Shown here piece by piece: positions 38,245-51,662 of a DNA stretch of 64,000 bases. The DNA is from Mesaphorura yosii. Lineage: Eukaryota; Arthropoda; Collembola; Poduromorpha; Tullbergiidae. Every line of letters begins with the position of its first letter. Within the stretch, counting starts at the first letter, position 1. The notes beneath the pieces were generated by a model. The model was not told the origin of the DNA, ran no database searches, and saw nothing but the letters and a program-made list of their open reading frames with translations. The DNA lies in contig WIXG01000167.1 of the NCBI GenBank assembly GCA_009869945.1, positions 62,001 to 126,000 on the forward strand, read 5' to 3'. The position numbers were made by a program, and so were the translations under genes.

Positions 38245-38885
38245 ATGTCCAGCTTACTTTCTTATTCTCTTCTTATCACATCTTTGGCATTGCTGACAAT
38301 CAACTCTGCCCAGGTGAATGCAGCGACGTTCACGCGATGCAGTTTGGCGCAAAAGCTGAAGAGTCTTGGATTTTCTAACCTTGGTGACTGTAAGACCTTC
38401 ACTTTGTCTTTGTTGTATGGCAAGTTGTACGAATTGAGTTGAAATGACTGAATATTGAAGGGGTTTGTCTCGCTGAGGCGGAGAGCAGCTTGAACAGTTC
38501 AATTCGTGGACGACGCAATAGTAATGGAAGTTATGATTACGGAATTTTCCAGGTACATTTTCCTCAATGCGCTTGAAACTTTGTTCGTAAAAATCGTAAC
38601 TTTCAGATCAATGACGGGTACTGGTGCTCAACTTCATCCACACCTGGAAAGGATTGCCGTGTCACATGTGCAAGTAATAAATTCTAGCGTAGTGTTATAT
38701 TTTAGTTGGATTTCCGGGAATTAAGTTTATTTGTTTTGAAAGGTTTATTGGACGACGACATCACAAACGATGCGGCATGTGCGAAAATAATCTACAGGCG
38801 ACATGGCTTCAATGCTTGGTATGGCTGGAAAGCAAAATGCCAGGGAAAGGATGTTAGCTCCTACATTCGTGGCTGCGGTGTTTGA
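38245..38885 (+). CDS. C-type (chicken-type) lysozyme, secreted, 148 aa
   Basis: Exons 38245-38389, 38461-38552, 38607-38673, 38743-38885; phases 1, 0, 1. The four-exon layout is like animal lysozyme C genes. A signal peptide covers about residues 1-26. The mature protein begins near [16 protein letters not shown] and holds eight cysteines in lysozyme order: [39 protein letters not shown] and GCGV at the end. Both catalytic acids are kept: Glu in VCLAEAES (equivalent to Glu35) and Asp in YDYGIFQ (equivalent to Asp52). It should cleave beta-1,4 bonds in bacterial peptidoglycan, in hemolymph or gut. The SLC22-like gene lies upstream on the same strand, and the cysteine-rich peptide array lies 2.6 kb downstream on the other strand. 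AATAAA is at 38998-39003. Confidence 0.95.
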
Positions 38886-41529: not shown

Positions 41530-41811
41530 TTAGCAGCACAGCACCTTCTTCCCAAGAAAGCATCGTTGTCCATCACCGTACTCATCTTCTCGTCGGAGCA
41601 TCCAGCCCAATGGGCAACGCCCTTTGCAGAAAGGAGCGGTTCCAACCCAGCGACATTCCCGATTAATTACTTGGGCAGCTAAAGTTAAATGGAGTATTTC
41701 TTTAAACGATGGCATTAACTAAAACCAAAACTTACGTGGTGGTGGAATGATTGATGAATACGAAAGGCTAATCGACAGCAGAACGAATGTCCAACAGACT
41801 ACTAATTTCAT
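41530..41811 (-). CDS. Secreted six-cysteine peptide of the WxGTAPFC family, copy 1 (74 aa)
   Basis: Exons 41811-41736 and 41678-41530; the phase-1 intron (gtaagt...aactttag, 57 bp) separates signal peptide from cysteine domain. Residues 1-21 are a signal peptide (hydrophobic VVCWTFVLLSISLSYSS), followed by a short Pro run. The domain reads CRWVGTAPFCKGRC, then Gly-Trp, Tyr-Gly-Asp-Gly, one Cys, Gly-Lys-Lys and a terminal Cys-Cys. Six cysteines in the pattern C-x8-C-x3-C-x17-C-x7-CC suggest three disulfide bonds. Mature size is about 50 residues. The function is unknown to me. A secreted disulfide-rich peptide beside a lysozyme could be antimicrobial, but a protease inhibitor or cuticle role is not excluded. 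Confidence 0.85.
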
Positions 41812-41930
41812 GTTAACTGTAATAAATTAGGAACGATTCGCTTAACACAGTCACCAATACGATTTTACGACCAAGTGAACCAAATGAGTTTCGCCAGTGC
41901 ATTAGTTACAAAAGTCGAGGCATGGAGTCG

Positions 41931-41936
41931 TTTATT
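41931..41936 (-). terminator. Polyadenylation signal, peptide gene 2
   Basis: AATAAA on the minus strand, about 49 bp past the stop at 41985. The spacing is repeated in copy 3 and in the decayed copy. Confidence 0.5.
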
Positions 41937-41984
41937 TAACTGAAGGTAATTGGCTTAATTGCATCAACGAAAAAACCGCAATCG

Positions 41985-42283
41985 TCAATCCTGGCAGCAA
42001 AATACTTTCCTTCCGCTTGCACATTTAAACCCGTCGCCTGCAATGTCCGACGCAAGCTGTCTCCAACCTCGACCGCAACGTCCATTGCAAAATGGTGCAG
42101 TTCCGACCCATTCACAACCTACACGCGAATAAGCACGTACTTCGTTATTGCGAACACTGGCTCCGGTATTTCATAAGTAATTTCGAACTTACGTAATGCT
42201 CCTGATGGTAAAAGGAAGATGCATATCACAATTCCAAGCAAAACCACCCGCAAAGCCAGAAGTTTGACAATGGAAGCCGACAT
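41985..42283 (-). CDS. Secreted six-cysteine peptide of the WxGTAPFC family, copy 2 (74 aa)
   Basis: Exons 42283-42193 and 42118-41985, phase-1 intron (gtaagt...gcgtgtag, 74 bp). A signal peptide of about 29 residues (LLGIVICIFLLPSGA) leads straight into the domain CEWVGTAPFCNGRC, then Gly-Trp, Gly-Asp-Gly, Cys, Gly-Arg-Lys, Cys-Cys, ending in Gln-Asp. Cysteine spacing is identical to copy 1 (8, 3, 17, 7, 0). It has no pro-segment, unlike copy 1. It sits 174 bp upstream of copy 1 in the same orientation, so the two are separate tandem genes rather than exons of one. Confidence 0.85.
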
Positions 42284-42474
42284 CTAAAATTCCTGAATCG
42301 AGTTTTCTAGTGGATGTGCAAGTCGCAATCACAAATTGAGAATTGAAATGAATATTTTCTCACTATTCATTCATAAGCTTCTGCGCAGATGCAACTCATT
42401 AAAATTACTTTAATTACTAAACATGATCGAATGTGATCCAATTAATTTGTCGAAAACAATCAACTTCTGAGATA

Positions 42475-42480
42475 TTTATT
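42475..42480 (-). terminator. Relic polyadenylation signal of the decayed copy
   Basis: AATAAA on the minus strand, 49 bp past the relic stop at 42529, as in copies 2 and 3. Confidence 0.4.
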
Positions 42481-42528
42481 CCAGTAATTAATTTCGAGTG
42501 AAGCTGGTTATTCGCAAATGATGGTCAA

Positions 42529-42855
42529 TTAACAACAAAGTCTCTTTTCGCGTTAGGTAGGTACGTCGATTGCTCGACTTGCCTCTGCTGAGTGTTCTGC
42601 TTCCAATGGCACAGACTCCAACGCAACAGAAAAGTGCAGTACCTGTCAAGCGACAGTTTAAAGTTTGCCAATCCACCGACCGAAAGTCAGCATTGCAAAA
42701 CTAGGGCAAGTAAATATGAATGCAATGTTCTGACAATTTACTCAAGTGATAATTTTTCAGGTTCGAAAAGCTCCTCCAGTCGACTCAGCCTGAGCCTGTC
42801 CTTTCTACCTGAATAACGCCAGCAAATGCGACACGCAGAACAAAAGCAGTAAAAG
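42529..42855 (-). pseudogene. Decayed copy of the WxGTAPFC peptide gene
   Basis: The region aligns by eye with copy 3. The cysteine exon reads CRLTGTALFCCVGVC: the Trp and Pro of the motif are lost and a Cys is gained. It then drifts out of frame, and the terminal Cys-Cys-stop survives only in another frame (TGT TGT TAA ending at 42529). The fourth cysteine is not visible. The signal-peptide exon is recognisable at about 42810-42855 (opposite strand gccagcaaatgcg), but its ATG is gone. The presumed intron is longer than in the live copies. Start loss plus frameshift make this a pseudogene. Confidence 0.7.
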
Positions 42856-42935
42856 AAAGATTTCGTTTTGTACCAAGTTAGCAAGAGCAGGATGTACGAT
42901 CAATGGCAATCAGTCGATCGCAATCAATTTGGACA

Positions 42936-42941
42936 TTTATT
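42936..42941 (-). terminator. Polyadenylation signal, peptide gene 3
   Basis: AATAAA on the minus strand, 48 bp past the stop at 42989. Confidence 0.5.
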
Positions 42942-42988
42942 TCAGCAATACTTGATTAGATTCCGGCTGGATTCACAAAAGTGGCTGA

Positions 42989-43269
42989 TTAGCAACATAG
43001 CACCTTTTCGCCGGTTATGCATCGACTTCCGCCACCAGCTTTGTCTCTGTATATAGCGACTCTTCCGCTGGGGCAGACTCCTTTGCAGAAGGGTGCAGTT
43101 CCAACCCAACTGCAACCTGTAAGTTGGTTAAGACTGGGTTGAAAGTGCAATGAATGAATTTATTGTCGATTTTAATCTCACCGAAAGCTTGCATGGCTCT
43201 GGCCTCGGCTACGTCCATCCCAATGACACCAGCAAATGCAACGACCAGAAAAATGGTAGCAAAACGCAT
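42989..43269 (-). CDS. Secreted six-cysteine peptide of the WxGTAPFC family, copy 3 (71 aa)
   Basis: Exons 43269-43182 and 43116-42989, phase-1 intron (gtgaga...aacttacag, 65 bp). A signal peptide covers about residues 1-23 (TIFLVVAFAGVIGMDVAEA), with a few linker residues, then CSWVGTAPFCKGVC, Gly-Gly-Gly in place of the Tyr-Gly-Asp-Gly of copy 1, one Cys, Gly-Glu-Lys and terminal Cys-Cys. Spacing is 8, 3, 17, 7, 0 as in copies 1 and 2. The unspliced frame runs 84 codons without cysteine pairing, so splicing is needed to make the peptide. It is the closest live relative of the decayed copy beside it. Confidence 0.85.
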
Positions 43270-43852
43270 TGTGATTTGTGAGAAGTTATGTCTTCAATTC
43301 CTTGTATCCTCGAAGCGTAAGCTCACTCTGACTCTGACGACCCACTGCCGCTGTCTACGCAAGATCATGACCCATGCGTCCGCGCCGTAATAAATCAGAC
43401 CCAATTACAGAATTTAATTAGTGGGCAGTGCTACTAATTAGTACAAGCATTTATTTGTACGTAAGGTGCATTAATTGCAATTACTAAATGAGGTTGAGCT
43501 ACTGTGAACTTCGAAGCTGCGGCTGGTGCTGTGCTGCGCTGGCTTGGCTAAAGTGCTGCTGGAATGTGCTACTGTAATTAGCACTCATCAGCTGACCCGA
43601 GTACTGCACCGTTTTAAAGATACGCCTTTGCTCATAAAATGGAGTCAGTTGAAGTATGTTTGTGGAGGTTATTACAATTACACAGGTTTATTCTCATCTT
43701 TTAACTACTATAATAAATAACAATAATAAATTAATCACATTAATACGGTTCACACACAATCACACAAATACGAATGCCAGTGTGGCCGGGTTGGGTCAAG
43801 ATGACGTAACGACGAGAATGGATGAAACCACGAATTAAAGGTAAATCGCGCG

Positions 43853-43858
43853 TTTATT
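43853..43858 (-). terminator. Polyadenylation signal overlapping the stop codon of peptide gene 4
   Basis: The AATAAA hexamer includes the TAA stop itself (CAA-TAA-A). If used, the 3' UTR would be only about 10-30 nt long. The other copies carry the signal 25-49 bp downstream. Confidence 0.4.
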
Positions 43859-44489
43859 GACAGCAGAGCGTCTTCCTTCCAGTCCAGCATTTTTTACCGT
43901 CTCCATACGACCCTGTCTCCTTCAACCACCAGCCGCTATCAGGACACTTCCCGTCACAAAACGGCGCTGTTCCAAACCATCTGCAATTATCTGGAATCAA
44001 ATATGCATGTAATAAAAAGAGGCCCGATATACTTTCGTTCGATGTGGTGTGAAAAAACATACCAAATTTAGTTGTTCGGCTGAAGGTGGTCCTTGCTCTT
44101 GCATTCGAAAACATCTGGGCATGGCTCTTCAGATTTCGCAGCCGTGTTTGCGGATCTTCGTCAGTCGAGCAAATCTGAACGTAGTCGTCCATAATCGTCA
44201 TGAATATTTTGTCACGCACAGCTTCGTGCTGCTTCTTTTCGGTGGGGCTGAGTTCGCTGTCCACGATTTCAGCAAATGCTTGCAGCAGTTCGCGCTTGAC
44301 CATTTCCAGCTCGGCCAACCGCGCCTGCCGGCTCGTGCTTTTTCCACACACTCGTTCGAACCTCAGCAGTGTACTCGAAGAAGCGCCAATTGCCAGGTCC
44401 AAAGCTGCGGCTTTTTCTTCTTCTGTCAAGGCGAGTACATTAAAAACTACTGATAACGTAATTACAAGGGCACAGTACACACGCTGCAT
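43854..44489 (-). CDS. Long WxGTAPFC protein with N-terminal helical domain, copy 4 (187 aa)
   Basis: Exons 44489-44063 and 43990-43854, phase-1 intron (gtatgt...gattccag, 72 bp). A signal peptide covers about residues 1-21 (VYCALVITLSVVFNVLA). Residues 22-142 are helical and charged, with two cysteines (VCGK and QICS) that could form one disulfide; I know no homologue. The C-terminal 44 residues are the family domain: CRWFGTAPFCDGKC, Gly-Trp-Trp, Tyr-Gly-Asp-Gly, Cys, Gly-Arg-Lys, Cys-Cys-Gln, with spacing 8, 3, 18, 7, 0. The intron is 24 codons and stop-free, so an unspliced message would encode 211 aa. The family intron sits at the same place before the cysteine domain. A TATA box lies at 44599-44606. 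Confidence 0.85.
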   Translation of the reverse strand: MQRVYCALVITLSVVFNVLALTEEEKAAALDLAIGASSSTLLRFERVCGKSTSRQARLAELEMVKRELLQAFAEIVDSELSPTEKKQHEAVRDKIFMTIMDDYVQICSTDEDPQTRLRNLKSHAQMFSNARARTTFSRTTKFGMFFHTTSNESISGLFLLHAYLIPDNCRWFGTAPFCDGKCPDSGWWLKETGSYGDGKKCWTGRKTLCCQ

Positions 44490-45738: not shown

Positions 45739-46319
45739 TCAGTATGCAATCTTGTATCCATGTTGCTCAACTGGAGTGTAAACATGGGCGACCTTAACTC
45801 CAGTGGTGTAGGTGACTGGTGCTGGAATTGCGACGGCTGGTGCAGCGGCGGCGTACTGCAGATTAGAGAATCAAGATTATTTGTTAGGAACGGTCCGAAT
45901 CGAATGTGAATCCTGCACAACTCATTGACTTACAGTAACGGCTGGAGCAGCGGCGATGGCAACTGGAGCCGGGGCGGCAGCAAGAGGAATTGCTGGAGCT
46001 GGAGCAGCAGCAATCTAATGCATCACAAGCAAAGAGTCCTCCTCAGTATACTGTCCAATGAATATCGTCCTAATACATATTTCTTACGGTTTTTACAATT
46101 GGTGCTGGAGCAGCTGCGTAGGCAATCGGAGCAGGACCAGCGACCAAGGTGGTACCAGCCGGATTTCCGGGACCAGTTGCAGGGAAGAGGCCACCGGGCA
46201 CAGCTACGGTCACAGCCAGGAGAGTGGAGAGTAGAACCTGCCACAAATTAGGTGGATGAACTGCTTGTAGTCACATGCTTACGTGCAGAAATATGTGAAC
46301 TTACAATTTTGGAGAACAT
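45739..46319 (-). CDS. Ala/Pro-rich cuticle protein, secreted, 120 aa
   Basis: Exons 46319-46305, 46237-46088, 46014-45934, 45855-45739; all introns are phase 0. The first exon holds just five codons, splitting the signal peptide, as is common in arthropod cuticle genes. The mature chain is built of AAPA/AAAPAP repeats (about residues 45-90), followed by a Tyr/Val/Thr end with YTTGVKVAHVYTP. This is the composition of low-complexity cuticle proteins with AAPA/V repeats. It lacks the Rebers-Riddiford chitin-binding motif, so it probably acts as a matrix filler in exoskeleton or soft cuticle. A TATA box lies at 46421-46428. Confidence 0.85.
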
Positions 46320-49632: not shown

Positions 49633-50329
49633 TTAATGCCTGTATCCCCGAAAGAAACGGCGTCGTGGCGGCTGCGGTCGCGGCCTGAGTCGGCGCGTGT
49701 GTGTCTGCGGTTGTGGCAATGGTTCTTGCCATTCTTGGGGCAAGATTAGCCTCCGTCTGTTGTCATAATCCATCGGGTGTTGAGGCTTTTGTGTTGGTGG
49801 AGCGTAAATTACTTCGAGCCCGTCTGCTGTTTCTCCGCTTGCCCCAAGAGAACCGGATTTGGCGGACGCTGGCACGGGTACAACGGCCGGTGAAGGTTCG
49901 GAGTAGCCGCCATGCCATCCGTGGTGCACAGGTTCATGATGTTGGTGCTGCTGATGGTGTCCATGACCGTGGCCATGATCGTGGTGCTTGTTCTTGTCAA
50001 TGTGGTTATAATCGAAGTAGTGTTCGCCGTACCCTCCCTTTTGGTCACCCCATCGGACCTTCGTCCTGAATTTCCAATCTTTTGATTGCTCATCTGAAAT
50101 ATGGCAAGGAGTGACGTTTGCATTTGCATGCTTTCAATGCTTAAATGTTAAACTTACATCGACTAATGTAATGATGTTGGTTCCCTCGATGGAATCCAAA
50201 CTCGTACTGGTGAGGACCTGGAACGTTGAGGTACTGAAAGTAGCCCTGATGCGAATGTCCAGCATCGGAGACTTCAATCACAATCACAAATATCGCCACG
50301 AGAATGGCGAGTCGATGCAGAGATCCCAT
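49633..50329 (-). CDS. R&R-like cuticle protein with His-rich and Arg/Pro-rich tail, 210 aa
   Basis: Exons 50329-50158 and 50093-49633, phase-1 intron (gtaagt...atttcag, 64 bp) restoring a Tyr codon. The ATG at 50329 gives a standard signal peptide (LAILVAIFVIVIEVSDAG); an in-frame ATG at 50353 would add eight residues. A region of about 50 residues (YEFGF near 42 to GGYGEHYFDYN near 88) has the aromatic and Gly spacing of a diverged Rebers-Riddiford chitin-binding motif. It is followed by a His-rich run (DHGHGHGHH), Pro/Ser linkers and an Arg/Pro-rich end with TRRLRPRPQPPRRRFF. An extracellular matrix or cuticle role is inferred. The His run may bind metal or act in tanning. No close family is recognised. 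Confidence 0.75.
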
Positions 50330-50353
50330 TGCACAAATATGAAATGCCTTCAT

Positions 50354-51662
50354 GATTGTAACGTCAATTTTTGATGTCTTAACTGACGGCTGTCTGGCAA
50401 TTAAATGAAAGTGAAAAGAGAGATCTTCTTCTATTTCTACAAAATTGTTCAGCTGGTCAATGAAAAAGGTTAATGCATCTGCCAACGTCATACGTTTTCT
50501 GCCAATTTCATGGTTCGTTACCGAGTTATAAAAATTAAATACGAACTGATAATTGGTCTGCGGCGCATCCTTCTGTTTATTTGTACTTATGAGGCTTTAA
50601 CAAAATGCAAGCAACAATCATCACGTTCACGTTACGGTCTCATTACATTGTTGCTTCGTTGCATTAATGCACGTCTTCACCCAATCTCGACCGACAACGA
50701 TTTTGTTCCGCTTGGAGACTTTTGACTTTGTATTCTATTTACTCACATGCGAGGTTTCACTTTCGACTGCTACTGCGACTACGTCCGAGTTGTAAGTGAA
50801 TGTCGATTTTCAAAATGCAATAGAAGAAAGGCTTTGCGAGAGCATGAGCCATTTTGTAAAGAAATAAACTAATCAATTTGTGAGTTGAACCTTCCTCCTG
50901 AGGAAGAGTTCTGCTGGCCTTCTCTACAAAGTTGTAGGCGACGGCGAGTTTCAAGACTCTTACCAAATGGTTGTGCGTTCCCAGTGTGACCTGTCCTCCA
51001 TTCCGTTCCTCTTTGTTCAGAGCGAGTAATTTATTATCCAGCACACTAGAAAATGAGAGCAATTAGAATTAGACTCGCATTCAGAGATCGAAGACGTTGC
51101 GCAAATAAAATTACTGTTAAACCGATTCATTAAAGACGTGTGAAGGAATTTCAAGAATGGGGCAAGGTTTAAGCTTTAATCTCAAACACTTTACGGACAC
51201 GGCCACAGAAAGAAGAAAGACCAAGACAGGACTTGTGCAGGAATGTTCCAATTCCAGTGGGATGGAAACTTCTCTCATTTGGACTCCACTCTTAAAATAC
51301 CTTTCCCTGCTCACTGTTCCATTGCTGGCTCTACTTGGCTTAGACATTGAGCTTTGGATTCCATGAAATCATTCACTAAATGGACTTTGTGCGACGAATG
51401 TTCTTGTAGCCTTTTGTCTGCTTGTCACTTTTGTCGCACTCTGGACTGTCTCTTTTGAAAAATAAGATTTATGATGACATCTTGGAAAATCTTGTGTTTC
51501 CAGCAGTGCGAACTGCAAGCTCTTATCTGTACAGTTCACGGCACAGCAATTTGGGTGCAGATTTCTGCTCAATTTGTTCAAATAAAAGTGTAATAGTAGG
51601 ACACTGCGAATCAGCTTGGTGCAGGGAATTAAATCGTATTATCATTGGCCCGCCGGTATCGC
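50354..51662. other. Intergenic or unresolved
   Basis: Two minus-strand frames (50757-51062 and 51117-51347) and one + frame (51157-51366) are open and partly protein-like. One acceptor (attttctag at about 51050) and one gtaaga donor (near 50965) lie inside, but I could not assemble a consistent gene or recognise a product. Confidence 0.3.

Follow-up and report, generated by a model that had tools for sequence, protein, structure and literature searches.

The minus strand of a 64,000-nucleotide stretch of contig WIXG01000167.1 from the collembolan Mesaphorura yosii (hereafter the window) carries, at positions 41530-44489, a tandem array of four intact genes and one relic, all within 3 kb, for small proteins with a six-cysteine domain. 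The array is real, and its novelty is the domain, which probably adopts a trans-defensin-like fold resembling the alpha type. As judged from sequence, this 45-residue domain is shared by animals, fungi, and several bacterial phyla and is no arthropod novelty. It is also uncatalogued, with no match above cut-off among the Pfam and NCBIfam comparisons tried and no paper found by its motif. The array encodes peptides that would be secreted, each with a single copy of this cross-kingdom domain as its mature part. A defensin-like defence-peptide action, to which we give about an even chance, is the best single reading, ahead of a binding module that does not kill.

The arrangement had been described in an initial annotation made from the window sequence alone, and spliced models bore it out: the genes lie head to tail on one strand, each intact copy begins with a hydrophobic, signal-peptide-like N-terminus (as read by eye), and all four contain one phase-1 intron (57, 74, 65, and 72 nt in copies 1 to 4) just upstream of the domain, which lies in exon 2. 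The cysteine spacing was exactly as proposed, C-x8-C-x3-C-x17/18-C-x7-CC, with x17 in copies 1 to 3 and x18 in copy 4. Copy 1 (41530..41811; exon 1, 41736-41811; exon 2, 41530-41678) encodes 74 residues with an aligned-domain net charge of +4, and an alternative phase-1 acceptor is possible 9 bases downstream. Copy 2 (41985..42283; exon 1, 42193-42283; exon 2, 41985-42118) also encodes 74 residues, with a net charge of +2, or +3 if the residue made by splicing is counted, and an earlier phase-1 acceptor is possible. Copy 3 (42989..43269; exon 1, 43182-43269; exon 2, 42989-43116) encodes 71 residues with a net charge of +4. The relic (42503..42854) is a decayed copy that retains a remnant of CxWxGTAPFC and is collinear with copy 3 in two short blocks, the signal-peptide region and the 3' end (E 0.003 and 0.039). 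Copy 4 (43854..44489; exon 1, 44063-44489; exon 2, 43854-43990; net charge +2) is the odd one at 187 residues, its exon 1 encoding a signal-peptide-like start followed by an insert of about 120 residues before the domain. This insert is charged, is probably helical, and contains two cysteines; no second copy of it was found in the M. yosii genome.

Searching the 93-Mb genome with the copy-4 domain recovered the other copies at E values of 2.7e-13, 2.2e-8, and 1.2e-6, and their similarity is therefore beyond chance. At E ≤ 1e-3 this query matched six places, the four copies and members on contigs C176 (L003) and C875 (L006), and the copy-3 domain matched the same six at E ≤ 10. The C875 member used as query added two weak places, C164 (E 0.109) and C225 (E 0.122). 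The C164 frame (L041; C164:28837-28977) reads by eye C-E-W-F-G-E-G-P-I-C ... C-x7-CC and was taken as a seventh member, giving a genome total of four array copies and three dispersed single members; the C225 place contains an internal stop and was left out of the count. In all seven members a possible phase-1 acceptor precedes the first cysteine by 2 to 29 bases, and more than one is possible in copies 1 and 2 and the C164 member. The C176 member has a Pro/Thr-rich C-terminal tail, and the C164 member is acidic (net charge -4). Within the array, copies are identical at 21-25 of 41 residues in pairwise comparison, with pS of 0.80-0.99 and pN of 0.29-0.37. Because synonymous change is saturated and pN is well below pS, the copies are old duplicates whose domain is under purifying selection, in agreement with the earlier suggestion of selection on the scaffold. 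The dN/dS comparison proposed with that suggestion yielded pN and pS but, dS being saturated, no ratio; a recent tandem expansion under positive selection was set aside because of the saturated synonymous sites.

A profile of six genomic members, searched against a protein database confined to short proteins, confirmed 113 of 367 candidates, counts that depend on word-based candidate picking and one degenerate pattern. The search for the cysteine pattern beyond its source thus reached arthropods, other metazoans, fungi, and bacteria. According to source names, the animals include arthropods, a tardigrade, and a nematode (Artemia franciscana, Strigamia maritima, Ramazzottius varieornatus, and Pristionchus pacificus), the fungi Galerina, Gymnopilus, Phlegmacium, Beauveria, Cubamyces, Xanthoria, Polycauliona, Thamnidium, and Pyronema, and the bacteria Cylindrospermum and a metagenome-assembled genome (MAG) of Pseudomonadota. 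Of 25 pattern matches in prokaryotes (one genome per species), 21 held up with a bacterial-based alignment (A2); they come from Pseudomonadota, Actinomycetota (Actinoallomurus), a Terriglobia MAG, and a deltaproteobacterial MAG. The animal-based alignment confirmed none of 31 in bacterial genomes. Viral contigs yielded 0 of 30 with alignment A1 and 1 of 11 with A2. Phage records contained no match to copy 1, and for five proteins compared with PHROGs the best E value was 0.098. When copy 4 served as database query, the whole protein gave 170 candidates, none of them confirmed, and the domain region alone gave no candidate; these misses are not counted as negatives, as P0001 (108 residues, a length that the search covered) has four or more 5-residue words in common with the copy-4 domain. 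The distribution is sparse and patchy, and 45 residues are too few to separate descent from transfer.

None of the four spliced proteins matched Pfam above cut-off (the sole match listed for copy 4 had E 0.16), nor did the three compared with NCBIfam. Among 53 members, no Pfam family was common to more than three (best E 0.0094), and at E ≤ 10 no defensin model appeared, one member weakly matching Myticin-prepro (E 0.11). Full-text searches of an open-access library for the motif turned up nothing relevant. Of the claim of an undescribed defence-peptide family, the first part therefore holds, whereas an arthropod-type peptide family does not, since fungi and bacteria carry the domain.

The pairing of the six cysteines can be approached through their natural loss. 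Of 182 domain instances found, the 175 with a model coverage of 60% or more were used, and seven with less were dropped. All six cysteines are kept in 109 instances and exactly C1 and C6 are missing from 54; three lack C6 alone, and two have a displaced C4. The double loss of C3 and C5 occurs once by itself (L029) and once together with loss of C1 and C6 (P0113). The five remaining instances comprise three truncated sequences (P0055, P0080, and P0107) and two with C3 but no C5 in the column, namely the second domain of P0030, which lacks C1, C5, and C6, and P0101, in which a cysteine lies close by. A direct count (121 parsed of 141 found) gave 80 sequences with both C1 and C6, 36 with neither, five with C1 only, and none with C6 only. 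Among 142 sequences under 80% identity the corresponding numbers were 94, 45, three, and none, so that the two states agree in 139. On a FastTree phylogeny of these 142, built with the end columns left out, C1 and C6 require 16 changes each, compared with 39 for a shuffled C1 label. Because both cysteines are lost together in natural variants, a C1-C6 bond is well supported by the sequences. A C3-C5 bond is weakly suggested by the two double losses, one of them in a degraded-looking bacterial gene, and the two instances that retain C3 without C5 are contrary cases. C2-C4 would follow by elimination. The whole, C1-C6 with C2-C4 and C3-C5, would be the alpha-defensin arrangement, for which support is moderate. 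Some members also carry an extra pair, x-C-G-[DN]-G-x-C, with both cysteines present in 15, one in four, and neither in 100 of 119 sequences (phi 0.87).

Structure prediction of the 45-residue domain, a check proposed with the initial annotation, was made with AlphaFold, which returned a confidently predicted beta domain with no helix at C-x3-C, in which the last strand (38-44) ends at C5. In the bacterial-member model, helical structure is limited to a stretch that precedes the domain and to a turn of three residues between C3 and C4; C-x3-C again has none. An adjacent CC closes the domain in all six aligned genomic members and, by frame reading, in the C164 member. In a structural second look, which re-aligned Foldseek-ranked chains only and leaves other folds possible, alpha-defensins were the best rows, at low Z; resistin rows obtained for the bacterial model, at 15 Å root-mean-square deviation, were discarded as meaningless. 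No defensin appeared among PDB sequence matches at E ≤ 10. Automatic database names for two relatives, a Galerina protein ('Invertebrate defen...') and a Strigamia protein ('LCN-type CS-alpha/beta'), suggest a classical CS-alpha-beta (cis-)defensin. The number of cysteines and the C-x3-C formed by C2 and C3 fit that framework, but neither model has a helix there, the C-terminal C-x1-C is replaced by CC, and the co-loss, an indirect test, joins C1 with C6 and not with C4, at odds with the CS-alpha-beta pairing C1-C4, C2-C5, C3-C6. The predicted fold, the closing CC, and the co-loss led us to reject this assignment, which we regard as very improbable.

Alpha-defensins have shorter C1-C2 and C3-C4 loops than this domain. 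Beta-defensins and big defensins, like this domain, carry six cysteines, of which the last two are adjacent. The domain resembles alpha-defensins in ending with an adjacent CC on the last strand and in its predicted helix-free beta sheet, and its inferred pairing equals theirs as given in an excerpt of PMC7203481 (C1-C6, C2-C4, C3-C5). It differs in the near-invariant W-x-G-T-A-P-F, in the lack of any defensin among its sequence matches, and in its presence in bacteria, fungi, and invertebrates; the same excerpt describes trans-defensins as confined to animals and alpha-defensins to a few mammals. Beta- and big defensins are paired C1-C5, C2-C4, C3-C6 in that excerpt, whereas the co-loss favours C1-C6. 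The domain is not filed as an alpha-defensin, since no sequence homology to a known defensin family was found and the evidence for the pairing is indirect. Small secreted six-cysteine peptides of bacteria and fungi are a further likeness, but those of PMC11561630 (bacterial) and PMC5234102, in the parts concerned, are cis-defensins with a CS-alpha-beta framework, and the Zymoseptoria derivatives described there have two residues between C5 and C6, which are adjacent here, where no helix is predicted at C-x3-C. No relevant paper on bacterial or fungal trans-defensins was found in the open-access library searched. With somewhat less than even confidence, we propose that a defensin-like domain with alpha-type pairing occurs in bacteria, fungi, and ecdysozoan animals. 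Either the alpha topology would then far predate mammals, or the domain would represent a third defensin superfamily of independent origin, extending from an arthropod immune array to an actinobacterial bacteriocin cluster. If true, the presence of a trans/alpha-type framework in fungi and bacteria would alter the animal-only view of trans-defensins, the same small fold encoded by a gene cluster in bacteria and a gene array in an animal would make a directly testable case, and an uncatalogued domain would gain a structure and a name.

The bacterial end of this proposal is a 69-residue open reading frame (ORF) in Actinoallomurus purpureus and A. spadix, the only two carriers among 297 genomes sampled from the family, consisting of a leader and a core that is the domain. 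In both species, a same-strand neighbouring ORF matches actinodefensin-associated protein B (E 1.7e-9 and 2.9e-6; 38.0 and 27.7 bits, under the curated cut-off of 45), a family that matched once in A. purpureus, once in A. spadix, and nowhere in 14 control genomes. Of the other same-strand ORFs, one weakly matches MauE and thioredoxin, another weakly matches Transglut_core3, and a further one is clearly a prolyl oligopeptidase; the large first ORF gave no match. Further out at the A. spadix locus, the only one viewed to that distance, two ABC transporters lie upstream, one per strand. The locus looks like a bacteriocin gene cluster whose peptide, stripped of its leader and exported, would probably be set free as a bacteriocin. 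The protein-B-like neighbour recalls actinodefensin clusters, and actifensins and actinodefensins of Actinomyces likewise combine a 69-residue leader and six-cysteine precursor with ABC transporters, a protease, and an alpha/beta hydrolase, according to a portion of PMC6989792. Actifensin itself belongs with arthropod-type defensins (PMC12284004, in part), whereas the Actinoallomurus core is another domain. In the open-access library searched, no relevant paper on Actinoallomurus and defensins was found, nor any on 'actinodefensin'.

Conservation extends beyond the cysteines: among the 142 non-redundant domains, W is kept in 126, G in 142, T in 131, A in 133, P in 141, and F in 129 of the WxGTAPF positions, and the K near the domain end in 136. 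Because these residues are conserved across kingdoms, they point to a fixed ligand. In the mechanism we envisage, the beta fold with C1 paired to C6 has good support. With weaker support, the W-x-G-T-A-P-F stretch and the G-x-G..C-x-T-G-x-K hairpin would form a binding site for a widespread microbial surface ligand (a cell-wall precursor or glycan), and animal copies 1 to 3, once released, would be small basic peptides of a defensin-like kind that serve in defence. The same conservation suits a possible, if less probable, alternative, in which the domain is a secreted module that binds glycan, cell wall, or matrix without killing. The animal copies would then work as soluble recognition proteins or as matrix proteins, and the cluster in Actinoallomurus would be a special recruitment. 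Among ten proteins scanned of 22 bacterial and viral-contig loci (L009-L030), the domain is paired with Ricin_B_lectin in L020 and L030 and with BTRD1 polyglycine-hydrolase repeats in L018 and L024, the other six having no match above cut-off, and it is present twice in several loci. Close to half of the family lacks a net positive charge: the value averages +1.3 over the 142 domains, with 44% at +2 or more and 46% at 0 or less. A pure binding role sits less easily with copies 1 to 3 and the named fungal members, which are short stand-alone secreted forms (from a search limited to short proteins), and with the Actinoallomurus precursor, in which the domain is joined to a leader only.

The defence-peptide action is weakened by these lectin and BTRD1 partners (4 of 10 proteins), by the lack of a general positive charge across the family (the window copies range from +2 to +4), and by a motif fixed across kingdoms, unlike fast-evolving antimicrobial peptides. 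The c-type lysozyme reported 2.6 kb away is present, its two plus-strand exons (38448..38885; frames 38448-38576 and 38706-38885) matching Pfam Lys at E 4.3e-4 (below cut-off) and 1.1e-9 (above cut-off) and ending 2.6 kb from the array, but a lone lysozyme neighbour proves nothing. The defence role put forward earlier is favoured indirectly, by the predicted fold, the inferred pairing, and the actinodefensin-like cluster.

Several side observations concern the bacterial and viral-contig loci. The viral-contig record L030 has the domain fused to the ricin-type lectin. Repeats of the form Y-G-P-D-T-C-x2-G-[FY]-V-W-R-E-A...D-H-V-C-V-T-P lie beside the domain in L014, L015, L019, L021, L022, and L023, of which L014, L015, and L022 were compared with Pfam and had no match above cut-off. 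The bacterial subfamily L009-L015 has a second cysteine-rich half after the domain, C-Y-G-[VI]-x-x-[VI]-C-[DE]-N-G ... C-x4-C-G-x-C. In Nitrosospira (L011-L013), the frame of the domain gene continues from what we take to be transposase-like sequence, a hint of mobility.

Elsewhere in the window, no Rfam family or tRNA was detected, and one simple NF-kB-like consensus occurred twice in the whole window and not between 40.5 and 46.5 kb, an uninformative result. Two minus-strand genes, at 45739-46319 and 49633-50596, encode small secreted Ala/Pro-rich and His/Gly-rich proteins that look cuticle-like by eye and have no Pfam match. Their position 1.3 to 6 kb from the array, together with the lack of known immune expression, would suit a non-immune arthropod role as a component of cuticle, egg, saliva, or venom; we consider this unlikely, and the bacterial and fungal homologues make a cuticle-specific origin unlikely in particular.
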